Assembly (NCBI GenBank): GCA_021732415.1
Contig: JAKFVC010000215.1
Span: 1-41,243 of the forward strand
Direction of reading: 5' to 3'
DNA from: Planctomycetaceae bacterium
GTDB lineage: Bacteria; Planctomycetota; Planctomycetia; Planctomycetales; Planctomycetaceae
Length of the DNA stretch: 41,243 nucleotides
In this document: positions 1,371 through 38,386 of the stretch, piece after piece
Position numbering within the stretch: the stretch's first letter is position 1
Layout of the letters: every line of letters starts with the position of its first letter
Notes under the pieces: model-generated
What the model saw: only the letters and a program-made list of their open reading frames with translations
Database searches by the model: none
Told to the model about the DNA's origin: nothing
Translations under genes and position numbers: made by a program

Positions 1371-1387
1371 GGGAGGGCGAGGGACTC
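1371..1387. repeat. Half copy of the GGGAGGGCGAGGGAC repeat
   Basis: GGGAGGGCGAGGGACTC matches the left arm of the large palindrome at 2256-2407 and the copies at 13524-13556 and 20024-20060. It lies just beyond the stop codon of the DUF4198 gene. Only one arm is present here. Confidence 0.7.
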
Positions 1388-2204: not shown

Positions 2205-2255
2205 ATTGGTGAATTTCTGGATGAATTGAGTAAGGAATTCGTGATTCAAGTCGGG

Positions 2256-2407
2256 GGGAGGGCGAGGGACCCAGAGGGTGCCCCGCCGAGCCTAAGGCGA
2301 CCGCAGGTCGGCGTCCGCCGGAGGCCTCCGCTCGATGCCTCCGGCGGACGCCGAGCTAAAGCTCGTGTTAGGCTCGGCAGGGCACCCTCTGGGTCCCTCG
2401 CCCTCCC
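2256..2407. repeat. 152-bp nested palindrome, GGGAGGGCGAGGGAC family
   Basis: The outer arms 2256-2282 and 2381-2407 are a perfect 27-bp inverted repeat. Pairing continues inward with one mismatch through 2283-2295 and 2368-2380. A second perfect hairpin sits inside: 2311-2325 with 2337-2351 (GCGTCCGCCGGAGGC and its complement). The whole element could fold into one long cruciform or RNA hairpin. It lies upstream of the DUF4198 gene, between it and the end of DUF1559 #1. It carries no T-tract and no plausible gene. Confidence 0.9.
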
Positions 2408-2476
2408 ATCACTTCGCATTGTCCGTGAGCCTTAGGGCACCCGACACGCCTGGCCGAATAGTTTTTTTATCGCGAG

Positions 2477-13486: not shown

Positions 13487-13523
13487 GTTTTGAAACGCCC
13501 CACCAGATGACGTCTGAACACCT

Positions 13524-13556
13524 CGGCGGGGTACCCTCTGGGGCCCTCGCCCTCCC
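13524..13556. repeat. GGGAGGGCGAGGGAC-family copy, reverse orientation
   Basis: CGGCGGGGTACCCTCTGGGG... to CCTCGCCCTCCC matches the right arm of the 2256-2407 palindrome and, inverted, the 20024-20060 copy. It lies about 70 bases before the start of the membrane-protein gene. Confidence 0.8.
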
Positions 13557-16970: not shown

Positions 16971-17000
16971 CCCCGCGTAAATGTCGATCCAAATTCATTA

Positions 17001-17060
17001 CCCAGGGTAGCCCGCCGGAGCGGGCAACCCTGGGCTATGATGCATATCCCCTTCGGGGAA
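17001..17060. repeat. GGGTAGCCCGC...GCAACCCTGGGC element (copy 1)
   Basis: A 60-base unit with an internal hairpin (CCCAGGGTAGCCCGC / GCGGGCAACCCTGGG) followed by GATGCATATCCCCTTCGGGG. Two nearly identical copies, arranged head to head, are at 38387-38592. Confidence 0.9.
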
Positions 17061-17507
17061 CTGATGCAGTTGACCAGCGTTACAAAACTCGAATGAACTT
17101 TATCCCCGCCAAATCCAACCCTTTCTTCATCCCAGACTGCAACCCTTACTCTTGTCTACCGACCTGACCGCGCGAGGGGGCGCCATTTTGGTGAGATTGA
17201 CGCCTCGATGTATGATCAATGGGTGATCTGTGCTGAAGAGGCTTGTCTGGGATGGCTTCCGGCGAAGAGTCGGGAAATTGGGGCATCGAGCCGGCATCAG
17301 GCGGCTGACCGGGCGTTCGCGTCGTTGTCGGAGTGTGAGACTGAGGGTTATCAAATCGGTGGAGGTAGGACTCGTGCTGCGCGACAGTTCGAGGGCGCAC
17401 ATGGTGCGCCTGCGGCGAGAGAGTAGATGGGAATGAGTAGAGAGTAGACTTAAGACAGATTGACGAGTTCAAAGAGTTCAAAGCTGCCATGTGGGTTTAG
17501 GAATTAT

Positions 17508-20023: not shown

Positions 20024-20060
20024 GGGAGGGCGAGGGACTCAGAGGGTACCCCGCCCTCCC
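20024..20060. repeat. GGGAGGGCGAGGGAC-family copy with short arms
   Basis: GGGAGGGCGAGGGACTCAGA continues to AGGGTACCCCGCCCTCCC, closing a small inverted repeat (GGGAGGG/CCCTCCC). It looks like the 2256-2407 palindrome with its centre deleted. It lies between the GT-C-like gene start and the terminator of the giant gene. Confidence 0.82.
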
Positions 20061-20145: not shown

Positions 20146-23100
20146 TTAGTTCACGGTAATGTTGCGTGTGGCCACGTTACCGCCGATTCCCAATTCGTCA
20201 AACGCTTGGACACTGACAATTCGCGGTGCGGCGAACGGTTTGCCCTTGAAGCTGGCGTGTTGCAAGACAACTTGGAACAGTTCCTTGCTGGTTGCACCCT
20301 GGAACTGGATCGTCAACGGCACGCCCGACTCTCCGCCGGTCAACGTGGCGATGGTGGTCTTGCCGAGCTTCAAGTCACCCTTGGCATTCAGCTTCAGCTT
20401 CTCACCGTTAAATTCGCCGTTCAGAACGCTGAGAGTATCGCCTGTTTGCTCACCGAGTTGGATCGCCAGCACGATTTTTCCATTGTTGAAGTTGGGCGAA
20501 TCAAAGTCGACCACTGTGGCCGTCGGATCGACCGCAATTTCCTTCTTCCCAGACGTGACACCAGTGGAACTGCTGAGCGTCACGATCGGTCCATCCTTCT
20601 TGTCGTTGATGGTGATTGTCAGGGCCTGTTCGATCGCATGGCTCGCACTGTCAGTGCTGCGAACCCGGACGGTGTAGATCGACTTGGTTTCGAAGTCGAA
20701 GATCTGGGCCGACAGCAGCTTGTTCCCGGAAATCTTGAACGCTGCATTGTCTGCCGAGCCAGTACCCGCCACCAGGCTGTAGGTGAAGCTTTCAGGCGAG
20801 TCCTGATCGGTCGTGTTGAATGTTCCCACGACCGTGTCTGCGGGCTTGTTCTCGTCGATATTCGCCGTGGACAGAGACACCGCTGTGGAGGCTTCGTTCA
20901 CATCCAGAATCGTGATGCTGAAAACCTTCGTGGTCACCAGTCCGTCGCGATCTCGCGATTGAACGCGAATCGAATAAGCGTGGCCCGGATCTTCGTAGTT
21001 CAGCGGACCGGCAACCACCAATTGACCACCCGAAATTGCGAACTTGCCATTGTCAGTCGCACCGGCACCACTCACCAGGCTGTAGGTGAACGTGTCACCG
21101 GCATCGACGTCGACCGTGGTCAAATCGCCCACCACCGTTCCCGGTGCCGAGTTCTCCACAATGGCACTGTTCGACAGGTTGATGTTGGTCGGCGTTTCGT
21201 TCACGTTCCCGACCGTAATCGTCAACGGCATTTCAAAGCCCAGTCCGGCAGTATCGGTGGTCCGAACGCGGATAGAGTAAGTCCCCTTGGCTTCCAGGTT
21301 GAACGGTTGAATGGCGATCAGTTGCCCATTCAGGATCTTGAATGCGGCGTTATCGGACGACCCGGTCCCGCCTACTAGAGCAAAGGTGGCCGTATCTGCC
21401 GCATCCGGATCAGACGCGAGGAGTGTTCCCACCACCGAATTCGCCGGTTGATTCTCCAGAATACTGTTTGGCTGCCCGGTGCCCACATTGTTCGAAGTCG
21501 AGATGCTGGTGGCCGGTTCATTCACGTTCAACACGGAAATCGTGAATGCCTTTTCGAAGCTCAGGCCTGACGGTTGCGTCGAATCGGTGACGCGCACCCG
21601 GATGAAATAGGTGCTCTTGGCCTCGTAGTTGAAGGACGCACTGGTCTGCAGTTGGTTGCCCACGATCTGGAAGGAGTCCTTGTCGGCTCCACCAGTTCCA
21701 CTCACGAGCGAGTAGATCAATGTGTCGTTGGGCAAGTCGACATCGACTCCCGTGAAGAGTCCGATACCCGTTCCCGCTGGTTGGTTCTCGAGCACCGTGT
21801 TGGCCGACAGCGAGACGTCCGACGGGGCGTCAGGAGCCGCAGTCGCGGTGATCGTGAAGGTCTGCGGTGCCGAGGTATCCACACCACCGTTGGCAGTGCC
21901 GGCCTTATCGGTCAGCGTCACCGTGATGTTGGCGAAACCGTTGGCGTTCGGGGTCAGGGTGTAGGTCAGCGTGCCATTCGACATGATGGCCGGGGCCACC
22001 ACAAACAAGTTCGGATTCGAGTTGGCCGTGACGACGAACGTCAACTGCTGACTTGATTCGTTGGCAGCTCCTGCCGAGATTCCCGTTGCCCAGTTGGTAA
22101 TCGTCTGTGGCGAGGCATCTTCAATCACGGTCTGATTGGGTCCCTTGATAAAGACGGGGACATCATTCACAGCAGTGGCCGTGATGTTGAATGTCCTGGG
22201 AGTCGTGGTGTTGACTCCGCCATTCAGATTATTCCCGCTGTCGCTCAGGGTGATCGAAATGTTGGCCGTTCCGTTGGCATTCGGAGCCAGGGTGTAGGTC
22301 AACGTTCCGGTCGACGAAATGGCTGGTGCCACGCTGAACAGGCTGGGGTTCGAATTCCCCGTCACGTTGAACGTCAGCAACTGGGACGATTCATCAGCCG
22401 GTCCGGCGGAGATCTGGGTAGCCCAGTTCGCAATCGATTGCGGCGCCGCATCTTCGAGGACGGTCTGATCGCCGGCGTAGACGAACGACGGCACATCATT
22501 CACCGCGGTGGCGGTAATGACGAAGCTTTGTGTTGCGGAAGTATCGACACCACCATTCTGGGTGCCACCGTTGTCACTCAGTTTCACGGTAATCGTCGCC
22601 GCACCATTGGCATTCGCAGCCAGCTTGTAAGTGAGGGTACCACTGGCATCAATGACCGGGGCCGCACTAAACATGCTGGGATTGCTGTTGGACACGACGG
22701 TAAAGGTCGGCAGTTGTCCGCTTTCATTGGGCGGTCCAACCGAGATCGCCGTGGCCCAACCGGTAATGGTCTGAGCGACCGCATCTTCCAGCAGATTCTG
22801 ATCGGCACCCTTCACGAACGATGGGACATCATTCACTGCGGTGGCCGTGATGTTGAAGGATTGGGTCGAGGATGTATCCACGCCACCATTCGCGGTTCCG
22901 CCATCGTCTTTCAACTGGACGGTGATGGTTGCGGTGCCGTTGATATTCGGAGCCAGTGTATAGGTCAGCGTCCCGTTCGGCCCAATCGCCGGAGCCGCGC
23001 TGAACAGACCCGGGTTCGAGTTGCCGACCACACTGAATGTCAGCACCTGACTCGATTCGTTGGCGGCACCAGCCGAAATTCCGGTCGCCCAGTTGGCAAT

Positions 23101-26100
23101 CGTTTGCGGCGGGGCATCTTCCAGCACCACTTGGTCGGCACCCTTGGCAAATGTCGGCACGTCATTGACGGACGTGGCGGTGATGCTGAAGGTCTGCGGT
23201 ACCGAAGTGTTGACTCCGCCGCCCGAGGTGTCTCCGTTGTCGCTGATGGTGATGGTGATATTCGACGTGCCATTGGCGTTCGGAGCCAGGGTATAGGACA
23301 GCGTGCCATTCGGAGAGATGGACGGCGCGACGCTGAACAGGCTTGGATTCGAATTGCCAGTCACGTTGAAGCTCAACAATTGACTCGATTCGTTGGCGGG
23401 GCCGGCGGAGAGTGCCGTAGCCCAGCCCGGGACGACTTGCGGCAGGGCATCTTCCAGCACCGTCTGATCGGCACCCTTGACGAAGCTCGGAGCGTCGTTC
23501 ACTGCGGAGGCGATGATGTTGAACGTTTGGGACGCGGCCGTGTCGACGCCACCGTTCAAAGTGCCCCCGTTATCACTGAGCGTAAACCGGATATTGGCCA
23601 TACCGTTCGCGTTGGGTGCGAGGGTATAGGTGAGTGTCCCCGTCGGAGAAATGGCGGGTGCCACGCTGAACAAACCGGGGTTCGTGTTGGCAATCACGTT
23701 GAATTGCAACGCCTGGCCCGATTCATTTGGAGGTCCAGCCACGATGGACGTCGCCCAACCGAGAATGGTCTGGGCGGCCGCATCTTCGAGCACCGACTGA
23801 TCCGCACCTCGGACGAACGACGGAACATCGTTGACCGGAGTCACCGCAATCGTGAACGACTGCGACACCGAGGTATTGCTGCCGGAATTCGCTGTACCAC
23901 CAGTGTCGCTGAGCGTAATGGTGATGTTTGCGCTCCCGTTGGCATTGGCGGCCAGGGTGTAGGTCAACGTTCCGTTGGACGAGATCGACGGGCCGGCACT
24001 GAACAGACCGGGGTTCGAATTGCCCGTCACATTGAATGTGACCACTTGGGCAGATTCGTCGGACGGTCCGGCAGAGATGGCAGTCGCCCAGCCCACGATG
24101 GTCTGCGATGGAGTGTCTTCCAGGACGGTCTGATCATTCCCCTTGATGAATGTCGGCGAGTCGTTGACCGCGGTGGCCGTAATGGTGAAGGTCTGCGTGG
24201 CCGAAGTATCGATGCCCGCGTTCGCCGTGCCAGCGTTATCGTGCAGCTTGATGGTGATGCTGGCGGTGCCGTTGATATTCGGCGCCAGGGTGTAGGTCAG
24301 CGTGCCGCTGGGCGAGATCGCCGGGGCCACGCTGAACAGTCCGGGATTCGAGTTCGCGGTGACGATGAAGTCGAGAATCTGTGCCGATTCATTCGGCGGT
24401 CCGGCGAGGATCGCCGTGGCCCAATTGCCGATCGATTGCGGCAGCGCGTCTTCCAGGACCAACTGATTGCTGCCCTTGGTGAAGGATGGAATATCATTCA
24501 CCGGAGTGGCGTTGATGTTGAACGTCTGGGTGACCGACGTGTCCTGACCGCCATTCACTGTACCGCCATCATCACTGAGAGTGACGCTGATCAAGGCGGT
24601 GCCGTTCGCATTCGGAGCCAGCGTGTAGGTCAACGTTCCCGTGGACGAGATCGACGGGGCGACCAGGAACATCGACGGATTCGAGTTCCCGATGACGTTG
24701 AAGGTCAACGCCTGGCCCGCTTCATCCGCCGGACCGGCGGAGATCGCCGTGGCCCAGTTGGGAACCGTTTGGGCGGGAGCGTCTTCCAGAACCGTCAGGT
24801 CGGGACCCTTGGTGAAGGTCGGAGCATCGTTCAGCGTGACGCGGATCGTGAAGGTCTGGGTCGCAGACGTATCCACTCCGCTGTTGGCCGTACCACCATC
24901 ATCCTTCAACCGGATCGTGATGGTTGTCTGGCCGTTGGCTGTGGCCGTCAGCGTATAGGTCAGCGTCCCGGTCGCCGAGACTGCGGGGGTGCCGGCCACT
25001 GCGAACAGGCTCGGGTTCGTATTCCCGATGACTTCGAAGGTCAGGTTTTGCGTGATGACTTCATCAGCCGGCCCAGCCAGGATGGAGGTGGCCCAGTTGG
25101 GCACCGAATTCGCGAGGGTCACCCCATCGACGATCTGGTCGGGTCCCTTGGTGAACGAAGGCACGTCATTCACAGCGGTGACAGCGATCTGGAAGGTCTG
25201 CGGTGCGGAAGTATCGACACCGCCATTCAGTGTGCCGGCGTTGTCCTGGAGAGTCACGGTGATCGTCGCGGGACCACTCAGGAAGGTATTCGCATTCGCC
25301 GCCAGGGTGTAAGTCAACGTGCCTGTCGAGGAAATGGCCGGCGCCACGGAGAACAACGCCGGGTTCGTGTTACCGGTAATGATGAACGTCAATCCCTGAC
25401 CCAGCTCGTTGGTCGGACCTGCCAGGATGGTCGTGGCCCAACCGGGTACTGTCTTCGCACCGGAATCTTCCAGAGCAGTCTGATCGGCTCCCTTGATGAA
25501 CGACGGAGCGTCGTTCACCGGGGTCACATTGATCCGGAAGGTTTGAGCTGCCGACGTATCGATGCCACCATTGAGCGTTCCGGCATCGTCCATCAATTTG
25601 ACCGAGATATCGGCGAATCCATTCACATTCGAGGCCAGCGTGTAGGTGAGCGTCCCGGTCGCGGAAATCGCGGGTGGCACGCTGAACAAGCCCGGATTGG
25701 AGTTGCCCGTCACGATAAACGTCAGGGCTTGTCCGGACTCATTCGCCGTTCCGGCCGAAATGGAAGTCGCCCAGGTCGAGACACTCTGTGCAGGAGCATC
25801 TTCCAATACCGTCTGATCCAAGCCCTTCACAAAGATCGGCACATCATTGACCGGATTCACGGTGATATTGACCGTGCTGGTCGTGGTCTGCGGAGATGTC
25901 GTTCCCGGCGAGGGCGCACCAAATTTGCCCAGGTCTTCCGTCTTGATCGTCAGCGGAATGGTGGGTTGAACGGTGGCAGGGAAATCTGCGGGTGGCGTGT
26001 AGATCAACCCCGACAAGACGGTGTTGATGTCATCCACCCGACCGTCAATGATGAACGGATCCAGCACGGTACCAGTCCCTGAGAATCCACCGGCGTCGGC

Positions 26101-29100
26101 GATCAGGTTCGTGGTATCACCCAGGGTCAGAGCCCCGATGGGAACACTCAACGAGACGCGGATACGTCCCCCGTTGGCTCCGGTAGTGACATCGCCGTCC
26201 GTGGCCAGGAAGGCGTCGGGGTCGGTGACCGATATCGAATTGGCTCCCGAGAACAGCAGGAAGGAATCTTCGTTCACAGTCACCGCAGCCGGGGCCGTAT
26301 TGACCGGGGCGTCGTTGGCACCATTCGTTACGATGTACGTGAAGTACAACAGGCTGCTGCTGAATGCGGCTGTCGCGGGAGTACTGATCAGGGTCGGCGG
26401 GACCGACTGATTGTTCTGCAGGAAGTTGCCCGCGTAATCCGTGACTCCCAGGCGGTCCACGATAATCTGATATCGACCGTCTAGCGGGAATGTGGACACC
26501 GAAGTGAAGATAGCTTCATTCGTATTCTGGTTGTAGGTGAAGAAGTAATCCTGGCCCGCCACCAGCGGCGCACCGTTCTGCAGCAACAGGAAATCGCCGG
26601 TATCGACCGAGCTGTCATCGATACCAATTCCGGAATCGATCAGCTGCAGTGTGAAATTCGTCAGAATGCTGAATGGCGAAGACGGCGTCGCGGTGTCGAT
26701 CCAGATCGCCGTTGCGTTCGGATCGAGGTCGATCCCGCTCCCGTCGTTATCCCGGGGTGCGGCAGCAATGACAACGCCACCTTCGAAGTCGGCACGCTCC
26801 AACGACCCACGATCCTGGAACGGATTCTGTCCCAGACCAGGCTGGTTGGCAGGTCCGGCCTGATTCGTATCATCCACACGCAATTGTCCGAAGCGGTCGA
26901 AGATCGGCGCGATGATGGGCGACTTGGGAATTCCCAACGGTCCTGTCACCGCAATGTAGGCGGCGCGGTCATTGAAGCCACTGCGTGAGCTGTCGATCAA
27001 CTGGCTGCCTGCTGCCGGGTAGTAATTATCTTTGGCGGCTTCCACGAACAATAGCTCGCCATTCGGGACGATCAGCGCATTGTTGCCCGCCTGGCCAATC
27101 GACGCGTAATACTGAAACAGGTTGGCGTCCACCTCGGTCGTGGCCGAACTGGCATCAATGGAGATGGCGGTGTTCGTACGCACGATCGCATTGTTCAACA
27201 GTGTGGGGCTGGCATTCTGTGAGACCAGGATGCCCGTCCCGACGAAGGAAGCCAACCTGATTGCGGCCGCATCCCCAAACCGCAAATTGTCGATGCTGAA
27301 ATTTGCCAGCTCGTCATCATTCGCGTAGAACGAAATTCCCGCTATCAAATTCAGGCCTGAGGTCGCTCGCAATCCAAATGTCTGGATACCGACCACCGAA
27401 TTGGTAACCTTCCCGAGACTCTTGCCGTTTACGTCGAAGGCCTCCAGGGTCATGCTGCCCACGGCGTCAAACACGCCGCCGTCCAGGGCCACAGCCGCGA
27501 CCGGTGTGCTGAACAAGACAGAGATCGGTCCATTGGAGGTCGGATTGCCAGTCAACACAGGTGAAGTTGGCTTCGAGAGATCAACGGCGATCCGGGTCGG
27601 GGGGGCATTCGGATCCAGTTGCAAAGGTCCGGTCGGCGAGGTATCGCTCAACGTGACTAAACTGCTCCCGGATGCGGTCTGGCCGAGGAAGTAGCCGCCA
27701 AATGTCACCGTCACATCGCCAACGCCTGGAACGGCCAGGAAGTTGTAAACCGGATCCGTGGTGTTGACCGGATAGCCGGGTTCGGAGAACGTGATCCTCT
27801 GTGCGGCTGCGGTGATCTCCGCCGCTCCAACTGAATCCAACGTGTTCGACACCTGCGTGCTGATACCAACGATGGTGTTGTTCACTACCTTGGCGAACGG
27901 AACAATTGCGGCGCCCAGGTTGGCATTCGCATCGCCAGTAATGGTGATGCCACTTGTTCCGAAATGACCAATGGTGTTGTTCTGCAGATACATCCCGGTC
28001 ACCAGCCGTTGGGTGTTCGGCACGGGAGTATTCAAGGCGGCACCCGGATGTGGTACGGTGCCAAACCGGTCGTCGTCGTCCACCAGAATGCCGGTCCCCG
28101 ACACATTCAGGATCTGATTGTTCTCAATGATGATCTGACCGGCCTGGCGTTCCAGGTTGTCGTCGCCCTGACGGACATACGAAGCGACCGACAACGGGGT
28201 CGGCAGACTCGAACCGGCCGATTGCAGCGACAGGTCCAGTTTGTAGAGGAAGGTGTCGTTGCCTGCAGCCGCCAGGGGATCGGGCGGTGCTGCGAATGTG
28301 GGGTTCAGTGGCGAGGTGATAAGGACGCCATCGTCACCCAGAATACCCAGGTAATATGTGCCATTTCCGGTCGCGGTGTAAGTCAACGTCCGATTGAAGA
28401 CGGATGCGACAAGAGCAAAGCTGCTGTCGACGACGGTCAGGAGATAATTCGCGCCGGGGACGCCGATCGCGGTCAGGTCGACCGTCAGCGTTTGCCCCGC
28501 CGTCATCGTGACTTTGAAGAAGTCGGAATCGGGATTGCCGGAGTTCGCGCTATCGCCGAGCACTCCGTTGAGTGTGTAGTAGCCGTCTGAACCCGTTGTG
28601 AATGCCCCCCTGCTGTTGGCGTAGAATGACACCGGATAATCGTTACTTAAAGCACCTTCCGATTCGTCGGCTAAAGCCGTAGTCGTGGGTGGAGTCCCAA
28701 TCGCAGTGGCCGAGACCGCGCCGAACAGATCCACGCGATCACTATTGACCGACGCACCAACCGCCTTGGCGATCACGGTGTTCAGACCGGAGAACGCAGA
28801 GTTGATGGCAGTCTCGAGATTTCCGGCCGTCTGTCCTTTGGTTGCGCCGATCCCTACAGCGATATTTGTTCCCGACGGTGCGCCGTTCGTAAATTCAAAT
28901 GTCTTCGTGATCAGGCCGTCGTAAACCGCGACCGTGTTTCCAGTCTGAATGCTGTTGCCGATCATCACCGTCTGACCGTTTGTCTGACGATCATTGATAT
29001 CGAGCGTCGGATTGATGGTGACAAAGCCCTTGGGCGTCGGAGGATCGACGAGGGCTCCGTATTGCTCGCCGCGCCGAATCTCCAGTTGATAGAGTCCAGT

Positions 29101-32100
29101 CAGCAACGGCGGCGTCTTCATCGGATCCGGATCGGTGGGAACCGAGGTGAATGTGGATCCCTGACCCGTCGATGCGGTGACCATTTCCCCGCGGCCGGCA
29201 AATCCGACGATGATATCGTCGACATAGAAGCCCTCGAAGTTATTGCTTCGGGCAGCGAGTGAAGAATTACCTGAGTTGGGGGTGACACCGTTGCGAGTCC
29301 CGTCACCGTTCGTGCCATCGTCCGTAAAGGTCGGGTTGCTGGTGTCATCGCTGGGTACCAGCTTGCCGGTGACTGGATCAACCACGGTGCCGGTCCTGCC
29401 GGAAGTGGAGAAATCAAACCGCAGCTTGACCAGGGGCTTGCCCACATAGTCATTCAAGTCGACCCGCGCCTGTCGCCAGGTCGCGGTGTCGAACATCTCC
29501 TGAACGTGTTGGTTGGGCTTGGGAGATGCCGACTTGGAGGCCGAGTAGAATGCCGGCAATTCGGCGTCGGGCATATCCGGTGCGGACAAGGCGGAGTTGT
29601 TTGTGGCAATCAGATCCCACGTCAAACCGTCATCGGTCGAGATATAGACGCGAGCGCTGTCACGCATCGAATCGGTGGAGTTGCCCCCGGCCTTTTCAGT
29701 ATCGAGCCAATAGTTGAAGTACAACGTGGGTTTGTCACCGGTCGTATAACCTTCCAGGTTAAAGGAATTGGTGACCAGGCTGCCGGCCGTACCACCCGGG
29801 ACGTTGTAGTTGCTACCGATCAGTGCATTGCCAGCCAAATCCATCTGGCTCACGCTGCTCTTCACGCCATACTGGCCACCACTGTCGTATTGGTAGTAAT
29901 TGCCAAAGCTTCCCGAGGAATATTCCTCAATGCCAAAGTAGAAGCTGGCGCCGCCAGCACCCTCATTCGAGCCCGGGGCCATCGATTCGTTGCCCAAGGT
30001 CGCCGACACCGTCTCGGTCGACGGCACGCGGGAGTTATCCACGCTGGGACTCGCGGCCAGGCCGGAGGTCGTGTTGACGCCGTGCCCCAGGTCGTTGCTT
30101 CGTTTTTCCGTGGGATGCCACAAGTTGTAGTCGGCCGGTGAGAAGGCCAGGCCGGTGGGGTTACCGACACCCGTGTCGATGTATGTGCTGTCGGCCACAC
30201 GATCATTGCCCGTCCTGTCGAACACCGTCTTCAGCGCCGCCGCGGCGGTGCCGGCAGTCGGATCAACTGCAAAAATCCGGCCGGTTGTCGTGATAATGAA
30301 TAACAGGTTGGCGTAGGCCTGGTTCTCGACGTTTTGAGGAGCGTCTGTCAGGCCCGCGAAAGTGCCACTGCCAGCCGGCAGGATCGCATTGAAGTCCAGG
30401 ATTGTGCCGCCGACCAGACGCGGTGTGACGGTAGGATCCGCGTTCGGATTGGCCAGCGGACTCGGATTACCGACGTTGGTCCCGCCATCGTTTCCAATGG
30501 CTCCCTGCTGGCTGATCTGATACAGCTGATTGCCGGCACTGACGCCCCATAGTACGCCCCCCAGCAACTGCAGGCCGGTCGTCTGAGTGATGATCGTGCC
30601 GGCCGCATCGGTGACAATGCCTGTCGCTCCCAGGTTACCGGGTGCCCAGGCGGCACTTCCGTTGGCCGCATTTCCGCGATACAGCTTGGACGCTCCCGCA
30701 ACCGCGGGGGTCGACGGATAGTCGTCATTATCCGCCGTCGCATAAAACACGATGTCGTATGACGCGGTGCCGTTTCGCCGGAACGCCAAGGCGGTCGAGG
30801 CTGAATTGTTGCTCTGGAAACGCTGGGTATTCCCGTCACCGTCCACGTCGGTAATGCCATCGGAGTTGGCACTGATTTCGCCACCCGTTCCAGTATCCAA
30901 TTCCACGAGCGCCCCTTGCCGCGAATCACCAGGGACGCTACGGACGCCGTACAAACGTCCGTCGCTCCGCATGTCGATATCGAGGAAAGTCTGATTCCCG
31001 TAGTTGGAATAGTCGATTTCGGTGGTTCCGTTGAAGGGATCGACCACGAATAGACTGGACGAGCTCGTCACGAACAGATTCACGTCGGACAAAGTGAACG
31101 GACGGATGTTGGTCTGCAGCGGAATAGAGGCATCAATATTGAATATTGGCCCCGAAAGGGGCGCAATATTGCTGCCTTGGGACGCATAGCCGGTGAAGCC
31201 GATGTGATCTTCCACCATGCGCTTGATCGAGTTGATGGGCTCCAGCCGGACGCGTTGCGTTTCCGGCGTGGCGTTTGAAGTGAAACCGGCGCTCAACGCT
31301 GTCGGCAATCGTCCGTTCGAGAACACGGCCACGTAATAGGTCTGCAAACCGCCGGGCGGAGGCCCGGGGATTACGCCACCCGTCTCGCTGATACCCGCCA
31401 CACCTGCCGGTAAATTCACGGAACCGATGAACGGATCCAGTCTGCCCAGGGTGCCGCGACTCAGGTCGTCCAGGTCCTGACCCTGGCCGAGCGCTGGCTG
31501 GTCGTCGGCAATGTCCGACTCGCGGCCAATGAAAATCAAATCCCTGCTGGAGTTGTAGACGGCAATCACCGTATCGGGTCGAGTCAATCCGTCCGCCCAA
31601 TCGATATCGAATGTCGTGGGGAAGAACTTGGGACCGGGAATAACGACCTGGACCTGACTGTAATCGACCGTGAAGGTGAAGAAGTCAACATCCGTGGAGG
31701 ACGCCAGGCTACCGGCCACACTCAAGGTGTTGCGATCGGTCTGCAGTAGCGGCCCGACGTATTGCCCGCCGAGGGGACCGTCGTTGTCAACGGTCGTTTC
31801 CGCTGCCTCACCCATCAATGGTGAATGGGCTGGCAGTCCGGTCAACACGATGCCGTTGGTCGCATAGCGAATGTCGGCGTAGCGAACCGTCGAACCTGGA
31901 ATTTCATCGACTTGCTTCAGGCGAACCTGCAACTGGTAGGCGCCGGATGTCAGGCCGTTACCCGTTGCTGGAATTGCTGCCGCTTCCTGGCCAGCCACAG
32001 GCTGACTCCGCACCCGTACGAAATAGGTAATAGGAGCCGTCCCCGTGCCCGGCAGTACGACGCGGAATCCCGCATCGTGGAAGTTGCTGGTGTAGAAATC

Positions 32101-35100
32101 GGTACCCAGCGTGGGATCCTTGACCAAGGAATTCAGTTGACTGTTGCCCGCGGTTCCAGCCAGCGTGCCTGCCAAACCTGATCCCAACCAAGTCGCCGGG
32201 TCGGCAGTCTCAGTCTGCGAATCCAACGACCGCGCCAGAACGGTTCCGCCAGAGTTCAACAATTCGACCATGGCATCCAGCCGCTGGCTGGTAAAATCGG
32301 TGTCGATCCAGACTTCCGTGCCTGGGGCGGCGGTGAAACTATAGACGTCCACATCACCCGGGTTATCGGGGCTGATGAAGCCGTGAACTTCATAACCCAG
32401 CCGTCGATTCTCGTCGCCGCTGTTCTGATTCGGTGCCAGATTGCCGAGCGATTGAGGATTTCCTACCGTCGAGTTGAGGTCGTTCCCTGCTGTCAGGGAA
32501 GGTTCGGTCTCCAGGACGACGGCCACGTTGCGGTCGTTGCTGTACTGATCGAAGGAAATGCTGTTCCAATCGCCGGGAGAACCCGTGCTCTTTCCGCCCG
32601 CGTTGTTGTTTCCATTCGTGTCGAATTGTGGGAACCCATCGGGTCGGAAGCCGGCACTGACGCTGTCATCCGCCAGGGAGGTCAGAATGACCGGGAAGTT
32701 CGGCTGGCCGATGATGTCCACTGTTCCGCCGACGCGATCACTGATATCCAGCGGGTCGCCCGTAGCGGCGAATCCGGCCGTGGCGCCCTGCAATTTGACA
32801 ACGAGACTGCCCGAAACGCTACTCTGCAGCCGTAGACCGCCATAAGTATGGAATTCGCTCGACGTGATGGTGCCACGCACCACGTGAGCGATGTCGGTAT
32901 CGTCCCAGACGCTCTCAATGGTCAGTTCCTCGGGACGGATATTCATACCCAGCGTGGACCCGAGGGCGAACGTCGGACTGTTCGCGAACTTGTTCAGGCG
33001 GACCAGCGGTCCATAGTTGTCATCGAATTGCGAGTAGTTAGCGACATTACCAGTGCTGCGACCATAATCCGGCAGCGTCACGTCCTGCATCGAGTTGGCG
33101 TTGATGCTGATCACATTGCCCTGGTTATCGCGGAACACGTTGTCCACGATAACTGGCTGCGCACCACGCACGAAAATGGTAGAACTGTCGTTGCCACCCC
33201 GGCCCCCACGATTGGTGGACGCGCCCCCGCCGAGGTTGTACTCGAACACACTGTTTGTGACCCGCAGATGCCCCTGGAGCACCTCGAGCGCGTTGAAACT
33301 GTCCGTATTACCGGAAATTTCTGACAAACCACCGGCGTAGGAAATCGAGACGTTGTCCAAACTGGCGGACGAAGCCTGGGCGACAAAAATACCAGACCAG
33401 TTGCCCGCCAGCGCCTGCGTACCGCCGTCGTTCTTCAAGTCAAACGTGCCGCCCGCGCCATAGCGGTCATCCTGCTGGCTGGTGAAGCGAATGGGATCTT
33501 CCGCCGTTCCTTCGGCGATCAGGGCGGAACGGCCAGTTCCCGTTTCGATGCGCGCTCCGGACAACTTGACGACAGTCCCGGGATCGATCATCAAGCGGGC
33601 CGAAACCGGGTTTTGCAGCGAACCGGCCGGGCGGCCATTCAAAATCAGGTTCTGCGCGATGACGTGAGTGATGTCCGTGTCGTCAAAACGCGCAATCACA
33701 TTCAGCATTTCAAATCCAGACCCCAATGCCGTCTGAATACGGACGAATAAACCGTTCGTCGAGTTCTGCGTGACGAGATTTCCGTAGATGTCGGGGCCGA
33801 TCCGGCCGTCGTCTGCGCGGAAACTGTCGGGATTGGCCGAGATGGCCGCATCCGCATTGTTGAGAATCGTGTTATTGGTGATGGTCGGGCGCGAGGTCTC
33901 CAAATGAATGGCGTTGTAAACAGCGAGCGCACCACCGTCGACGCCCACCTGTCCGCCGCCATACTGGATGGTGGCATGATTGACCGTATTCAAGTATTCG
34001 CCTGGCATGGCCGAGTCCGAATCCTGGCGGAAGACAATTCCTCCCCAGTCGGCTCCGTTGGCCGCGCCGTTTGTGCCATCGTCAACACTCCCCTTGGCGT
34101 CGTCGCGCCACGACGTGAAGGTGACGTTATTGCCGGGTGTTCCCAGGACCTGCAACACACCGTGCATGCGGAAATTACCGGTCGAGGAGGTACCGACATC
34201 GACCGTCTGGCCATGTAACTTGATCAAGGCCCCCGCGTCGATCATGACCGTGACATCCTGGGGCACCTGGAACGTACCGCCGTCAGACAAGGGGGTCTGA
34301 GCCCCGTTGTAATCGCGACCAATCGCGTACGGAACGTTATCTCCCAACGTGCGGGAGTCACCGTCGGCACCGCCGTTACCCACGATGCGCACGATGGAAT
34401 TGGGAGCGGCCACTGCTAGCGCGGCACTGATCGTCTGGTACGGTGCGGCCAAAGTTCCCGACCCGCCGGCCGGTGCCAGCTTGTCGACAAATATGGTCGG
34501 TGCGACGTTGAATGAGGCTGTGTATTCCCCCCCCGCCGTGCCGTTGTGATCACCGTCCAGAGATTGTCCCGTGGTATCAACCAGATTGCTCGAGACCGCA
34601 GGCGCCGGTTTGAAGTCCAGCTGGAGCTCGTACTGACCCCGAGATCGTCCGCCGAATCCGCTGTTCTCGATTGACGGATCGTAATTATTGTTCCCGGTAC
34701 TTGTGACCCCGATGTAAAAGGTCCCCGGTGTGACTTCGATTTCCAGGCCTGAGTCCTGCGAGAAAAAGTCGTCGTTCCGCGCGATGACCGTCCGCTTACC
34801 TGACCCATCCTCCTTGTAGAGAGTCAGTTCTGTATCCAGCAGATTGGTCGCGACGCCCAGTCGTTCCGCGATCGTCTGTGCGGACAAGGTTCCCGGCTGC
34901 GTCACGTTGAACTTGTACAGGTCGATGTCACTACTGTTATTGGGATACAATCGGAGCAGATGGATCAGGTCGTTGTCACCCGTAAAGACCTGCTCCACCG
35001 GGCCAGTTGTCGGACCACCACCCTGAATACTGGGTACGTCATAGCTGTGGCCGAGTCCCAGAACGTGACCGATTTCGTGGAAGGCAACGCTGGTGAAGCC

Positions 35101-37488
35101 GCCACCGAATTCGTTGTCGTTGGCAAAAAAGATCGAGTTGATAATCGTGCCAGAGATACCGCCCACCTGGTCTGCGGCGAGCGTCGGCGCGAGCACGCGA
35201 ATATCTCCCACAATGATGGTTTGCGAACCACCTGAGGCAACCTCGCGGAACTGAATTCCGGCCTCATTCGCAAAGATGGCAAAAATTTGCCGAATGATTT
35301 CTTTTTGCTCAGGCGTAATCTGATTCAGCAGCCCGTTTCCATAGCTCGTCGGGAACGAGTAAGTTTGTTCGCCAGTGGGACTCGGAGGGGCCGGATCCCC
35401 GTCAGTCCCTGTCCCGTGACCGATTTCAGGTCCCGAGAATCCGGTGAACGCACCGCTGGGAAGTTCACGATGACCTGGCTCATCGGAACCGCCAGGCATC
35501 TGGGGCATCGTGACGAATGCACTTTGAACCTCGATTTGTCCCGCAGTAGACAGCCCGCTGGACCCCAGGTTCCCCAAGTCCGTCGCAGTCCCGAAACTCG
35601 AGTTGTCATCGCTGGTACTGCTGACTTCGTCCGAATCAATCTGCAGGCGGTAACTGCCGGTGGTCAAGCCGCCGCTGGAAGAAATTCGCACTCGGAATGT
35701 CCCGACACCCAGCGGACCGACAGTCAGTATCTCCTGACCATTGGCCAAGGCGCTATCTGAGGACGAGAGCGGTGTATTGCCCGTTCCCAGGAACTCGATC
35801 GTGCCATCCAGACCACCGGTCGGGTCGAGCGTGAAATTTACCGTGCTGCCCGCGACCAGCGTCGTGAACTGATAGACATCAGCGTCGGTCGCGTCGGAAC
35901 TGGATCCGGATCCATCACCCAGGTAGTCGTTGGTCACAAACGGTTGGGCCGAGAACACCGTCCCGACGTTAGCGGCCGTAGCCGGAGTACCATTGGGCTC
36001 GCTGGAAATCCCCAGTTTCAGGTTGTAGGTGGTCGGACTCAGGGCTGCCGAAAACTTCAATACCGCAGCGCTGAGGCCATTCAGCTGGTTGTACTGGTAC
36101 TTCACACTTTGCGGCAACAGCACTGTGCCTGTCGCGGCGTCGATCAGGTGATAGTACGTAGGATCCTGGGCGATCGAACTGTTGAGTTGATCCTGATTGA
36201 AATAGACGACGACCGTATCTGTGGCCTGCGACAACTTGCCCGCGCTGAGGCTAAAGACTGGCAGCCCTGTTGTGACCGCTAGAGCTGGGGTGCCCAGGGC
36301 GGACAGACTCGTTACCGCGACGTTCGTAGTACCGGCGACTTGAGTCGCTTTGACCTGTTGGGTCGGAGTGTTGATCGGTAACCCGTTGATCGCACCAGCG
36401 ATCAGGCCGGCTAGTGTGTTGGCCGTCGCACCGTTCGCATAGTTGATCCGGATATTTCCGGACGTGATCACGTTATTGACGTTCGTGTTGTTGAACTCGA
36501 AGGTGTAATTGACACCGCTCAACGTCAGTTTCAGCAGGTCGCCGTCGGCCAGATTGGCGGGGTTGGGGATCGACAAATTGGTCTTGGAGAAGGCGTCGAT
36601 CTTGGGGGTGGTAAAGGAAACCGTGGGCTCAAACGCCGCACCCGACACTTCAATGCTCTCGCCGGTCACCACGGCAGAGATATTCCCGCCCGTGTTCGCG
36701 AACGAATTCATCTGAGCGGCGATAGCCGTTGCCACTTGCGCCGGAGTATCACCCGCATTGTAATTGACGCCAATGTGTCCAGCGCCCACCACCGCATTCG
36801 GCGACAGGTTCATCTCGAAGATGTAGCGATACGGGCCCGCGTTGACGGTGATCAGATCCCCATCGGAAACGCTGCTGGTGTTGGTCACAGAGAACGGCAG
36901 ACTGCGAATGACCGGTTGCGGGACGACCGCTTCCACCTGCGAACCCAGGTCGAGTTCAAAGTTGAACGATTTATAGGTCTTGCCAGCATCCGGCGTCAGC
37001 GTGTCACTGGGATTGCCCACCAGAGGGTTCCCGCCTGTGGCGTCGATGCGGATCTGGTACAGGTCGTCGAACAGAGTGCTGGCATAGCGGACGATGACTT
37101 CGTTGGTGTTGTCTCCCACACCAACGTAGCCCAGCGTCACCAGGACGTCGTCCGTGCTCTCCACGGCAGGCGTGGCGGGATCATCGAAGAGGCCATCGAG
37201 CCCGGCTCGCGTGACCGTGATCGCCCCCAGGGACGTCGCATCAATCGCCTGGCCCGGGCTGAACCGCAAGGTCATTTCCCGCGGCGCTTCATACATCTTG
37301 GCGTTATTCGAGAGGAATACGCCCTGGTTGGGAATGACGGTCACCAGGTCGAATGCCGAGAGCACAACTCGCTCTTCAAGGCTCTCGACTCGTAATGGCA
37401 GCGTCTGCTGAGAAAGCCGCTTCACACTGCGGCGTGTTCCTGGAATCCAGCTAGTTTTCAGAGCTTCCAACCACGGTCTGATATACAT
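20146..37488 (-). CDS. Giant secreted multidomain protein with matrixin, PPC, beta-helix and 12 tandem repeats
   Basis: 5780 residues. N-terminus: LEPR-XLL-type motif VESLEERVVLSA (34-45). Order after that: two GDLxxxxxG..Y.FEF modules (about 190-420, a third near 2850), a PPC-like domain (about 525-625), a matrixin-like metalloprotease (about 695-835) with HEIGHVLGLGH at 804-814, another PPC (about 850-960), right-handed beta-helix sequence (about 1000-1690), PPC (about 1710-1820), beta-propeller-like sequence with DVNLFVTSSSSLFVVDP (about 2130-2440), lectin-like sequence (about 2460-2720), PPC (about 2980-3080), a second beta-helix (about 3100-3560), Ig/cadherin-like domains (about 3610-3870), 12 repeats of about 111 residues (about 3880-5217), four cadherin-like domains with LENQPAG-type starts, and a final beta-rich domain. 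AAAGG lies 8 nt before the ATG and a terminator follows the stop. Likely a cell-surface or matrix protein for adhesion or polymer processing; function is inference. No C-terminal anchor or PEP-CTERM is seen. Confidence 0.95.
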   Translation of the reverse strand: MYIRPWLEALKTSWIPGTRRSVKRLSQQTLPLRVESLEERVVLSAFDLVTVIPNQGVFLSNNAKMYEAPREMTLRFSPGQAIDATSLGAITVTRAGLDGLFDDPATPAVESTDDVLVTLGYVGVGDNTNEVIVRYASTLFDDLYQIRIDATGGNPLVGNPSDTLTPDAGKTYKSFNFELDLGSQVEAVVPQPVIRSLPFSVTNTSSVSDGDLITVNAGPYRYIFEMNLSPNAVVGAGHIGVNYNAGDTPAQVATAIAAQMNSFANTGGNISAVVTGESIEVSGAAFEPTVSFTTPKIDAFSKTNLSIPNPANLADGDLLKLTLSGVNYTFEFNNTNVNNVITSGNIRINYANGATANTLAGLIAGAINGLPINTPTQQVKATQVAGTTNVAVTSLSALGTPALAVTTGLPVFSLSAGKLSQATDTVVVYFNQDQLNSSIAQDPTYYHLIDAATGTVLLPQSVKYQYNQLNGLSAAVLKFSAALSPTTYNLKLGISSEPNGTPATAANVGTVFSAQPFVTNDYLGDGSGSSSDATDADVYQFTTLVAGSTVNFTLDPTGGLDGTIEFLGTGNTPLSSSDSALANGQEILTVGPLGVGTFRVRISSSGGLTTGSYRLQIDSDEVSSTSDDNSSFGTATDLGNLGSSGLSTAGQIEVQSAFVTMPQMPGGSDEPGHRELPSGAFTGFSGPEIGHGTGTDGDPAPPSPTGEQTYSFPTSYGNGLLNQITPEQKEIIRQIFAIFANEAGIQFREVASGGSQTIIVGDIRVLAPTLAADQVGGISGTIINSIFFANDNEFGGGFTSVAFHEIGHVLGLGHSYDVPSIQGGGPTTGPVEQVFTGDNDLIHLLRLYPNNSSDIDLYKFNVTQPGTLSAQTIAERLGVATNLLDTELTLYKEDGSGKRTVIARNDDFFSQDSGLEIEVTPGTFYIGVTSTGNNNYDPSIENSGFGGRSRGQYELQLDFKPAPAVSSNLVDTTGQSLDGDHNGTAGGEYTASFNVAPTIFVDKLAPAGGSGTLAAPYQTISAALAVAAPNSIVRIVGNGGADGDSRTLGDNVPYAIGRDYNGAQTPLSDGGTFQVPQDVTVMIDAGALIKLHGQTVDVGTSSTGNFRMHGVLQVLGTPGNNVTFTSWRDDAKGSVDDGTNGAANGADWGGIVFRQDSDSAMPGEYLNTVNHATIQYGGGQVGVDGGALAVYNAIHLETSRPTITNNTILNNADAAISANPDSFRADDGRIGPDIYGNLVTQNSTNGLFVRIQTALGSGFEMLNVIARFDDTDITHVIAQNLILNGRPAGSLQNPVSARLMIDPGTVVKLSGARIETGTGRSALIAEGTAEDPIRFTSQQDDRYGAGGTFDLKNDGGTQALAGNWSGIFVAQASSASLDNVSISYAGGLSEISGNTDSFNALEVLQGHLRVTNSVFEYNLGGGASTNRGGRGGNDSSTIFVRGAQPVIVDNVFRDNQGNVISINANSMQDVTLPDYGRSTGNVANYSQFDDNYGPLVRLNKFANSPTFALGSTLGMNIRPEELTIESVWDDTDIAHVVRGTITSSEFHTYGGLRLQSSVSGSLVVKLQGATAGFAATGDPLDISDRVGGTVDIIGQPNFPVILTSLADDSVSAGFRPDGFPQFDTNGNNNAGGKSTGSPGDWNSISFDQYSNDRNVAVVLETEPSLTAGNDLNSTVGNPQSLGNLAPNQNSGDENRRLGYEVHGFISPDNPGDVDVYSFTAAPGTEVWIDTDFTSQRLDAMVELLNSGGTVLARSLDSQTETADPATWLGSGLAGTLAGTAGNSQLNSLVKDPTLGTDFYTSNFHDAGFRVVLPGTGTAPITYFVRVRSQPVAGQEAAAIPATGNGLTSGAYQLQVRLKQVDEIPGSTVRYADIRYATNGIVLTGLPAHSPLMGEAAETTVDNDGPLGGQYVGPLLQTDRNTLSVAGSLASSTDVDFFTFTVDYSQVQVVIPGPKFFPTTFDIDWADGLTRPDTVIAVYNSSRDLIFIGRESDIADDQPALGQGQDLDDLSRGTLGRLDPFIGSVNLPAGVAGISETGGVIPGPPPGGLQTYYVAVFSNGRLPTALSAGFTSNATPETQRVRLEPINSIKRMVEDHIGFTGYASQGSNIAPLSGPIFNIDASIPLQTNIRPFTLSDVNLFVTSSSSLFVVDPFNGTTEIDYSNYGNQTFLDIDMRSDGRLYGVRSVPGDSRQGALVELDTGTGGEISANSDGITDVDGDGNTQRFQSNNSASTALAFRRNGTASYDIVFYATADNDDYPSTPAVAGASKLYRGNAANGSAAWAPGNLGATGIVTDAAGTIITQTTGLQLLGGVLWGVSAGNQLYQISQQGAIGNDGGTNVGNPSPLANPNADPTVTPRLVGGTILDFNAILPAGSGTFAGLTDAPQNVENQAYANLLFIITTTGRIFAVDPTAGTAAAALKTVFDRTGNDRVADSTYIDTGVGNPTGLAFSPADYNLWHPTEKRSNDLGHGVNTTSGLAASPSVDNSRVPSTETVSATLGNESMAPGSNEGAGGASFYFGIEEYSSGSFGNYYQYDSGGQYGVKSSVSQMDLAGNALIGSNYNVPGGTAGSLVTNSFNLEGYTTGDKPTLYFNYWLDTEKAGGNSTDSMRDSARVYISTDDGLTWDLIATNNSALSAPDMPDAELPAFYSASKSASPKPNQHVQEMFDTATWRQARVDLNDYVGKPLVKLRFDFSTSGRTGTVVDPVTGKLVPSDDTSNPTFTDDGTNGDGTRNGVTPNSGNSSLAARSNNFEGFYVDDIIVGFAGRGEMVTASTGQGSTFTSVPTDPDPMKTPPLLTGLYQLEIRRGEQYGALVDPPTPKGFVTINPTLDINDRQTNGQTVMIGNSIQTGNTVAVYDGLITKTFEFTNGAPSGTNIAVGIGATKGQTAGNLETAINSAFSGLNTVIAKAVGASVNSDRVDLFGAVSATAIGTPPTTTALADESEGALSNDYPVSFYANSRGAFTTGSDGYYTLNGVLGDSANSGNPDSDFFKVTMTAGQTLTVDLTAIGVPGANYLLTVVDSSFALVASVFNRTLTYTATGNGTYYLGILGDDGVLITSPLNPTFAAPPDPLAAAGNDTFLYKLDLSLQSAGSSLPTPLSVASYVRQGDDNLERQAGQIIIENNQILNVSGTGILVDDDDRFGTVPHPGAALNTPVPNTQRLVTGMYLQNNTIGHFGTSGITITGDANANLGAAIVPFAKVVNNTIVGISTQVSNTLDSVGAAEITAAAQRITFSEPGYPVNTTDPVYNFLAVPGVGDVTVTFGGYFLGQTASGSSLVTLSDTSPTGPLQLDPNAPPTRIAVDLSKPTSPVLTGNPTSNGPISVLFSTPVAAVALDGGVFDAVGSMTLEAFDVNGKSLGKVTNSVVGIQTFGLRATSGLNLIAGISFYANDDELANFSIDNLRFGDAAAIRLASFVGTGILVSQNASPTLLNNAIVRTNTAISIDASSATTEVDANLFQYYASIGQAGNNALIVPNGELLFVEAAKDNYYPAAGSQLIDSSRSGFNDRAAYIAVTGPLGIPKSPIIAPIFDRFGQLRVDDTNQAGPANQPGLGQNPFQDRGSLERADFEGGVVIAAAPRDNDGSGIDLDPNATAIWIDTATPSSPFSILTNFTLQLIDSGIGIDDSSVDTGDFLLLQNGAPLVAGQDYFFTYNQNTNEAIFTSVSTFPLDGRYQIIVDRLGVTDYAGNFLQNNQSVPPTLISTPATAAFSSSLLYFTYIVTNGANDAPVNTAPAAVTVNEDSFLLFSGANSISVTDPDAFLATDGDVTTGANGGRIRVSLSVPIGALTLGDTTNLIADAGGFSGTGTVLDPFIIDGRVDDINTVLSGLIYTPPADFPATVQPTIPLTIKTEDLGKFGAPSPGTTSPQTTTSTVNITVNPVNDVPIFVKGLDQTVLEDAPAQSVSTWATSISAGTANESGQALTFIVTGNSNPGLFSVPPAISATGTLTYTLASNVNGFADISVKLMDDAGTLNGGIDTSAAQTFRINVTPVNDAPSFIKGADQTALEDSGAKTVPGWATTILAGPTNELGQGLTFIITGNTNPALFSVAPAISSTGTLTYTLAANANTFLSGPATITVTLQDNAGTLNGGVDTSAPQTFQIAVTAVNDVPSFTKGPDQIVDGVTLANSVPNWATSILAGPADEVITQNLTFEVIGNTNPSLFAVAGTPAVSATGTLTYTLTATANGQTTITIRLKDDGGTANSGVDTSATQTFTIRVTLNDAPTFTKGPDLTVLEDAPAQTVPNWATAISAGPADEAGQALTFNVIGNSNPSMFLVAPSISSTGTLTYTLAPNANGTALISVTLSDDGGTVNGGQDTSVTQTFNINATPVNDIPSFTKGSNQLVLEDALPQSIGNWATAILAGPPNESAQILDFIVTANSNPGLFSVAPAISPSGTLTYTLAPNINGTASITIKLHDNAGTANAGIDTSATQTFTITATAVNDSPTFIKGNDQTVLEDTPSQTIVGWATAISAGPSDESAQVVTFNVTGNSNPGLFSAGPSISSNGTLTYTLAANANGSANITITLSDTGGTANSGSNTSVSQSFTIAVTPVNDVPSFVRGADQSVLEDAAAQTILGWATSIVAGPPNESGQALQFNVIANTNPGLFSVAPAISPTGTLTYTLAPNANGMANIRFTLSDNGGTLNGGVDTAASQTFNIIASAVNDAPSFVKGADQTVLEDALPQVVPGWATALSAGPANESSQLLSFNVTGNSNPSLFSVAPSISPNGTLSYTLAPNANGTSNITITISDNGDTSGGGVNTSVPQTFSITATSVNDVPTFAKGADQVVLEDAPPQTIANWATGISAGAANESSQVLTFSVVGNSNPGLFSAAPAIGPNGTLTYTLAPNINGTATITVQLKDDGGTANGGVDTSSTQSFNITATAVNDVPSFVKGADQNLLEDAVAQTITGWATAISVGPPNESGQLPTFTVVSNSNPSMFSAAPVIDASGTLTYKLAANANGAATITVKLSDNGGTQNGGVDTSATQSFVITATAVNDVPSFVYAGDQTVLEDAAPQSIANWATQISAGPADESSQLLTFNVTGNSNPSLFSVAPAISSTGTLTYTLAPNANGTANISITLSDSGNNLNGGVNTTTPRTFNITATAVNDVPVFIKGPNQTVIEDASPQTITNWATGISAGAANESSQQLTFVVTANSNPNLFVVAPAIMSNGTLTYTLTPNANGFANITVTLTDKAGTANGGVDTSAPQTFTITATAAPDAPSDVSLSANTVLENQPAGTGIGLFTGVDVDLPNDTLIYSLVSGTGGADKDSFQIVGNQLQTSASFNYEAKSTYFIRVRVTDSTQPSGLSFEKAFTISVLNVNEPATSISTSNNVGTGQPNSILENQPANSVVGTLLASDPDAADTATFALVGGTGSSDNAAFKILNGQLIAIQPFNLEAKGTYSIRVRTTDTAGLGFEMPLTITVGNVNETPTNINLSNSAIVENSAPGTVVGDLTTVDVDAGDTFTYSLVSGAGATDNGKFAISGGQLVVAGPLNYEDPGHAYSIRVQSRDRDGLVTTKVFSITILDVNEASTAVSLSTANIDENKPADTVVGTFNTTDQDSPESFTYSLVAGTGSADNAAFKISGNKLLSAQIFDFETKSIYTVRVRSTDSASHAIEQALTITINDKKDGPIVTLSSSTGVTSGKKEIAVDPTATVVDFDSPNFNNGKIVLAIQLGEQTGDTLSVLNGEFNGEKLKLNAKGDLKLGKTTIATLTGGESGVPLTIQFQGATSKELFQVVLQHASFKGKPFAAPRIVSVQAFDELGIGGNVATRNITVN
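21838..25851 (-). repeat. 12 in-frame tandem repeats of about 333 bp
   Basis: Each unit encodes about 111 residues, opening VNDVPSFVKGADQTVLED and containing NWATAISAGPANES, GNSNPGLFS, GTLTYTLAPNANG, GGTANGGVDTS and QTFTITATA. Units 4-12 are the most alike. Unit 1 differs in details. Unit 2 has a small insertion (TFLSGPAT). Unit 3 lacks VLED and has a different start (DQIVDGVTLANSVPNW). The units look like VCBS or cadherin-like beta sandwiches, and the acidic EDAxxQ turn could bind calcium. The repeat is coding, so it is not a CRISPR or satellite array. Confidence 0.9.
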
Positions 37489-37501: not shown

Positions 37502-38386
37502 GATTCTCTCGAAAGACGTTAAACGTTGGGGCTTCCAACTGGAACTCCGCTGCGGTCAGGTTCGTCATAACACGCCCTGAACGGTGTGCAGTCAGACGGC
37601 ACTGTCGGCCGCACACGCTTCCAGCAATTTGCCCTACCACGCAAAGAACCCTCGCTGGATCGCGATCGTTCTTTGCAGCCCGCTAAACCATTCCTCAGTC
37701 ACCTGAGCCACAAACAATGTCGTGCTAAGATTTCTTAACACGACTAAGACACAACGACTTTAGTTCTTGGCGATCACTGCACAGACAGACGGTTGCTTCC
37801 GCTCGAAACACAGCACTTTGCGCAGCCATCGCGTGGAGATGGTCGAAAGGCATTGTGTCTTGATGCTTTCGCATGGTGTGGAACTGGCCCTTTGAAAAGC
37901 AGAACACAACACACTTTGATATTTCATTAAGAAGATAATCGAAGTCCGAATGGCAGCCTTCAGACTGGAATTTGCCGTGCGAAACGCGCATTACCCGCGT
38001 TTCGGCGCCTGGGAAGTTGCCCGACGATGGCAACTTTTCGGGCATCGGGTGCTCGACAATTCCGCTGATCGGTCAACATATCGATGCGGAAAGACCACAC
38101 GCAATCGAGAACTGAAGTTTTTTTTAGAAATTGCGCATATGAGGAGTGCGGTCGGTTGCACGACTGTAGTGCAAATTATATAAGTAGTGGATAAATGGAA
38201 GACGCAGTGTCGTAGATCGCGACATCTGTGCGCTGTTTGAATGTTCGAACCGGGGCCACGGTATTGCGAAACCGATGGGCCTCCTAGTGGCGTTTCGAGA
38301 CAGGTCATTCAAGGGACCTGACGCCGCAGCAGCAGGCTGAATTCCGAACTTGAAGTGTTCGTTGAGAGTCGCCTGCGGTTGATCAA

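Follow-up and report, generated by a model that had tools for sequence, protein, structure and literature searches.

The 152-bp palindrome at positions 2256-2407 of the window (the whole stretch of 41,243 nucleotides analysed here, contig C69 in a draft genome of 9.87 Mb and 350 contigs) is best read as two REP-like units in inverted orientation rather than as a classical MITE. Judging from sequence comparisons, it is very probably a non-autonomous palindromic repeat of REPIN/TIRtron-like type, without a GTAG/CGTC tag, which is mobilised by one subfamily of RAYT enzymes. A preliminary description had called it a mobile or degenerating miniature element, a view which is supported by the hundreds of copies present in the genome.

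The full element consists of two long arms, inverted around a core with a further hairpin (sequence, repeat search and fold as single-stranded DNA). The left long arm (2256-2283, plus strand) is made up of a foot, GGGAGGGCGA (2256-2265), and a hairpin module, GGGACCCAGAGGGTGCCC (2266-2283), with the boundary between them set by comparison of long and short arms and by the fold of the long-arm consensus. The right long arm (2380-2407, minus strand) is an inverted copy of the left by sequence and repeat search. The outer inverted repeat is indeed perfect over the 27 bp that had been claimed (2256-2282 / 2381-2407) and lies within a 45-nt arm pair which is 93% complementary. The inner hairpin (2310-2352; sequence and fold) had also been recognised, but its perfect stem is 16 bp long (2310-2325 / 2337-2352), not 15 bp, around an 11-nt loop; this loop differs from copy to copy of the element. 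As single-stranded DNA the 152-bp element folded at -89.8 kcal/mol, compared to -37.1 +/- 3.4 kcal/mol in 200 dinucleotide-preserving shuffles (z = -15.4), none of which folded as well.

Three further pieces of the family were found in the window: a truncated arm with the foot and the first bases of the long-arm hairpin (1371-1387, plus strand; sequence and 15-mer search), one single long arm (13522-13556, minus strand; repeat search) and a 37-nt double-foot hairpin comprising foot, hairpin module and foot complement (20024-20060; repeat search and fold), a form shared by the copies at L246:983, L247:5253 and L251:798. These are the three pieces listed in the preliminary description, the heading of which had counted four; its start for the single arm, 13524, was 2 nt short. 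It had also placed the pieces always between genes. Intergenic position was examined for the window copies only: these do sit between long ORFs, and are overlapped by shorter ORFs which are probably spurious. The long arms hold a G-quadruplex-type motif of four G-runs (2253-2278 and 20024-20046, with the complement at 2385-2407 and 13534-13556), which is absent in that form from the short arms. Searching Rfam at gathering score gave no matches in the window.

A genome-wide search with the arm had been proposed as a check, with a lack of further copies named as the refuting outcome, and further copies were found throughout. The long-arm 15-mer GGGAGGGCGAGGGAC occurs 67 times in the genome and the 12-mer foot GGGAGGGCGAGG occurs 442 times, compared to 0 and 2 occurrences respectively for the reversed controls, so the family is not due to chance. 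Using the 152-bp element as a query we obtained full, one-armed and core-only matches (40 of 268 candidates scored), and the arm which appears to be missing from the shorter matches is another module on the same foot. The unit is approximately 26 nt long, with the G-rich foot GGGAGGGCGA (~10 nt) followed by a small hairpin, GGCTC-N5-GAGCC, or in long arms GGGACCC-AGA-GGGTACCC. The short arm thus reads GGGAGGGCGA-GGCTCCCGCCGAGCC and the long arm GGGAGGGCGA-GGGACCCAGAGGGTACCC-CGCCGAGCC. Within 20 stretches of this genome (224 kb), picked for foot occurrence, we found 40 paired copies and 9 unpaired ends. The paired copies range from 37 to 226 nt, with sizes of 126-131 nt (n = 23), 80-82 nt (n = 6), 139-143 nt (n = 4, hybrids of one long and one short arm), 37 nt (n = 3), 151-152 nt (n = 2), 106 nt (n = 1) and 226 nt (n = 1).

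The borders of the unit are sharp. Immediately before the foot, 117 of 126 arms from this genome have a T, with GAT preferred, and in 207 arms from other genomes (taken from 109 of 115 pattern loci) the only preference at -1 is for a pyrimidine. At the other end, column 26 is G in 165 of these 207 arms and letters are near random from column 27 on. It should be noted that conservation within the unit is inflated in the 207 arms, as their loci were fetched with an exact 25-mer; the borders are unaffected by this. At one locus (L333) 11 head-to-tail units with a spacing of exactly 26 bp adjoin a RAYT gene. A tandem array of units with a spacing of ~117 bp was also seen beside the RAYT gene at L323.

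The preliminary description had found no transposase in the window. This holds in that none flanked by the element was found there; elsewhere in the genome, however, there is a RAYT gene bracketed by the element. A search for Pfam Y1_Tnp (PF01797) found 13 genes in the genome, none of them bracketed by arms, which had suggested that no RAYT was involved. This was overturned when a 13-kb piece of contig C5 was used as a synteny query and led to an ORF encoding a 158-aa RAYT (C5:10012-10485, minus strand) within an 807-bp block ordered element, ORF, element. The subfamily RAYT is present once in this genome, flanked by units. It carries the HuH motif DHIH and YVRFNP, and matches NCBIfam REP_Tyr_transpos (NF047646; 1.5e-19, 70.3 bits, below the curated 80), Pfam Y1_Tnp (0.0013, 19.3 bits, below the curated 23) and the solved structure 4er8 of TnpArep (8.9e-7); its score below the cut-off of the Pfam model is the reason why the PF01797 search had missed it. 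In the subfamily alignment His-hydrophobic-His is present in 18 of 18 rows, as DH[IV]H in 17 and NHIH in one, and the Tyr and Asn of YxxxN are present in all 18 rows, with Pro in 17 of 18, which is the class 2 signature. In a tree which includes the longer L347 row and leaves out L349 and L350, the 18 subfamily rows fall on one side of a branch (support 98/99), separate from 15 other rows.

Some of the other Y1 genes are accompanied by inverted repeats of a different kind: when 8 of the 13 Y1 loci were inspected, the gene was enclosed in 6 of them by inverted repeats of 47-97 nt that do not resemble the arms. The window also holds a second palindromic repeat family (16999-17068, 38382-38448 and 38531-38600), of which 46 nt match the flank of another Y1 transposase gene of this genome, L060 (95.7%), and which is for that reason probably that gene's own repeat. 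A stretch of 25-28 nt at 15853-15880 matches both flanks of a third Y1 gene, L062. A single ORF of 5780 aa (20146-37488, minus strand) with about eleven internal repeats of 333 bp probably encodes a giant surface protein.

We searched for the 158-aa RAYT in 59 relatives, and for an alignment of six subfamily members (A1) in 44 arm-bearing genomes. The latter were picked from the genomes behind at least 115 loci of the 25-mer pattern and were thus already known to hold arms, so the evidence which is free of this choice is the contrast with other RAYTs together with the 59 relatives. Profile scores fell into two groups, 196-274 bits vs 59 bits or less, and one gene of G059 appears as two pieces scoring 102 and 92 bits. 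The subfamily comprises 19 genes, each counted once, of which 16 have arms within 500 bp on both sides: all 14 of those from the 44 genomes (G026 among them), the gene of this genome and the gene on contig C670 of the congener G003. As for the other three, a second G003 gene (contig C425) is strictly one-sided, with a full element at one end and what looks by eye like a variant long arm at the other; the G034 gene has no arm nearby, although by eye a foot carrying a different hairpin was recognised on one of its sides; and the G032 gene has no arm nearby. In contrast, at 110 other Y1/RAYT loci (101 unique by shared centre) arms were found on both sides in none and on one side within 500 bp in 2, and 104 had no arm in the locus. 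The 110 loci include those of a further search in 13 relatives, which gave 30 RAYT loci, the G034 subfamily gene and 29 others, two of these with a one-sided arm. The arms therefore bracket one RAYT clade specifically. At several loci the subfamily gene lies within one inverted arm pair, and at others there are whole hairpins on each side.

Comparison with two congeners (G003, which matches MAG RYN_439 place for place, and G002, which likewise matches MAG LH-05nov19-189) showed that site occupancy differs between genomes. At the window site G003 is without the element. Its interval orthologous to window positions 2250-2410 (L186) was seen by eye to hold an unrelated palindrome, GTAG...CTAC, as if several repeat families used such intergenic places. 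G003 contig C855, which is parallel to C2:1-20000 of this genome, contains no feet in 19.8 kb, even with one mismatch allowed, compared to five copies here. At four of these five places a short interval can be aligned to G003 and the element is absent there, and the fifth is taken up in G003 by 2.8 kb of other DNA. Where this genome has an 880-bp interval containing the RAYT and two copies, G002 has 117 bp of other sequence. At C5:19750-19892 there is a 143-bp copy in this genome and a perfect 37-nt hairpin in G003, with closely matching flanks, so that the series of full, half and centre-deleted elements proposed from the window alone is borne out at an orthologous site. No clean empty site or insertion footprint was seen at the G003 and G002 junctions compared. 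We also observed one copy lying between the arms of another palindrome (GTAGCCCGACTC...) at L235:18523-18653, where G003 has that palindrome without the copy.

Among the exact matches to the 25-nt short arm which were listed are MAGs titled Planctomycetes, Phycisphaerae, Acidobacteria gp11, Armatimonadetes, Hydrogenedentota and others. RAYTs of the subfamily that are bracketed by arms occur in MAGs bearing the titles Planctomycetes/Phycisphaerae, Acidobacteria gp11 (G081), Armatimonadetes (G089), “Bacterium HR16” (G092) and “bacterium WY4.bin59” (G095). These phylum labels are the titles of the MAGs; they may be wrong and the bins may be mixed. The short arm is also present in 14 stretches of viral contigs; the 152-bp element gave no match to plasmid and phage records at E 0.001. 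A 16-mer of the short arm was found in 16 of the 59 relatives, with 2 to 344 matches each, and is absent from 43. The subfamily RAYT is present in 4 of the 16 arm-bearing relatives vs 1 of the 43 others (p = 0.017). It was not found in the remaining 12 of the 16 with the 158-aa protein, nor in 30 of the 44 arm-bearing genomes with the A1 profile. Arm copy number does not track the presence of the enzyme, and G002 has 140 arm matches and no subfamily RAYT that we could find. It is possible that such genomes have lost their enzymes, that their bins are incomplete or that elements were transferred alone.

These arm-rich genomes without a detected subfamily RAYT are also what would be expected if the palindromes were spread and reshaped by replication slippage, template switching and gene conversion, without a transposase, and the RAYT merely lay in a place rich in copies. 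The swapping of arm modules between copies, with hybrids present, and the 37-nt and 143-bp forms at one site agree with this as well. However, it leaves unexplained both the bracketing of the RAYT clade, compared to 0 of 110 other Y1/RAYT loci, and the near-identical unit beside the RAYT in MAGs of different phylum labels. We consider it very unlikely to replace mobilisation by the RAYT, although slippage and conversion may well act in addition to it.

The strong fold and the position between long ORFs could also be accounted for if the palindromes were kept for a role in the host, in transcript ends, mRNA stability or DNA topology, with the RAYT incidental; such roles have been described for REPs in the available text of PMC8266576. 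Yet the window copy has no T-run after it, and the short-arm 16-mer is absent from 43 of 59 relatives. In 30 copies from this genome, 7 of 48 consensus pairs showed double changes, one in the core (columns 43/117) and six in the arms, where the aligner superposed long and short modules. Covariation thus says little about an RNA role, for or against, since the consensus pairs are mostly invariant. We regard a host role as the sole explanation as very unlikely.

In the copies inspected, the element is preceded by GAT and followed by ATC, which extends the palindrome; no direct repeats or target-site duplications were noticed by eye at the ends of these copies, and none of the junctions was clean enough for a duplication to be recognised. 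A classical MITE cut by a DDE transposase would account for the terminal inverted repeats and the many copies, but with GAT and ATC in place of direct repeats at the ends of the copies inspected we consider it extremely unlikely.

Mobilisation by the RAYT subfamily would account for the different forms of the element as follows. Two inverted units around a variable core would give the palindromes of 126-152 bp, collapse of the centre would yield the 37-nt double-foot hairpin, and single and truncated units would be half or decayed copies; we infer loss of the centre, not gain. The RAYT, with its HuH motif and tyrosine, is the likely mobiliser. Several results weigh against this reading: most of the arm-bearing genomes searched gave no subfamily RAYT, arm numbers do not go with presence of the enzyme, three of the 19 subfamily genes lack arms on both sides, the 158-aa protein scores below both curated cut-offs, the short arm folded on its own no better than shuffled versions of it, and the junctions compared gave no clean empty site or footprint. 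By analogy with TnpAREP as presented in the available text of PMC8266576, it may bind the folded single strand through foot and hairpin, and its tyrosine may nick near the foot, with the strand then joined to another single strand. Paired hairpins would move together as a single unit. The foot stays constant while the hairpins are swapped, which suggests that the foot is the main recognition determinant.

RAYT groups have reportedly been described by Bertels et al. in 2017. The element agrees with the definition of a REP as a high-copy, mostly intergenic palindrome of 20-50 nt (442 feet, unit of ~26 nt, window copies between long ORFs) and with that of a REPIN as two inverted units forming one larger hairpin (40 paired copies and the fold of the window copy). 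As in the GTAG/CGTC REPs, REPtrons and BIME/REPIN, as far as described in the available text of PMC3733652 and PMC8266576 (REPINs are also the subject of PMC3116915), the genome has hundreds of short palindromic units, often as inverted pairs, and, as in REPtrons, a tyrosine transposase gene flanked by units, found once in this genome. Unlike tagged REPs, none of 126 arms from this genome and none of 207 from others have GTAG, GTGG or CGTC in their first 24 nt, and the 6 nt upstream contain a tag in just 2 of 126 and 2 of 207 respectively; with the tag nearly always absent and a G-rich foot of ~10 nt instead, this is not a GTAG/CGTC-tagged REP.

R. baltica is a planctomycete. In the available text of PMC3733652 it is named as one of the organisms with many tyrosine transposase genes accompanied by repeats, and RAYT-like genes between non-GTAG inverted repeats, some of which are repeat families, are described there as TIRtrons (TIRYT), so an element of this kind is already known. 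The subfamily described here agrees with that definition, 16 of its 19 genes being bracketed by arms. The TIRtrons of that text are moderately abundant and coexist in a limited number of genomes, in contrast to the 442 feet found here and to nearly one unit across several phylum labels. Their GGGGWSAS motif differs from the foot here, the TIRs being set apart by description only. The TnpAY1 class 3 of PMC6006769, in its available text, resembles our system in its occurrence in Planctomycetes and Acidobacteria and its atypical high-copy flanking structures. It has NHVH, YxxxxQ and a CnGA foot, whereas the RAYT clade here has DH[IV]H, YxxxN and the class 2 signature, and its exact combination of motifs matches no row of Table 1 of that paper.

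In the literature searched, with most subscription papers outside its scope, we found no description of this unit, of this RAYT clade or of its constancy between differently labelled hosts. There is about an even chance that this is a new RAYT lineage with its own untagged unit with a G-rich foot, the letters of which hardly vary between hosts with the labels Planctomycetes, Acidobacteria and Armatimonadetes, although the enzymes have diverged to ~50-70% identity. It would then be a REP system common to phyla, through repeated transfer of the whole pair or a very tight constraint between enzyme and target, in which the hairpin modules are exchangeable and the foot is kept. The dissemination of REPs is called poorly understood in the available text of PMC8266576, where the enzymes studied use GTAG-tagged units from Proteobacteria. 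The pair of RAYT and unit found here has a different foot, with natural hairpin swaps on a nearly constant foot (long arms, short arms and the G034 variant), and its target hardly changes across many pairs of enzyme and unit. These are useful contrasts for asking what the enzyme recognises in the unit. This also explains a repeat which will recur in the annotation and assembly of planctomycete genomes.
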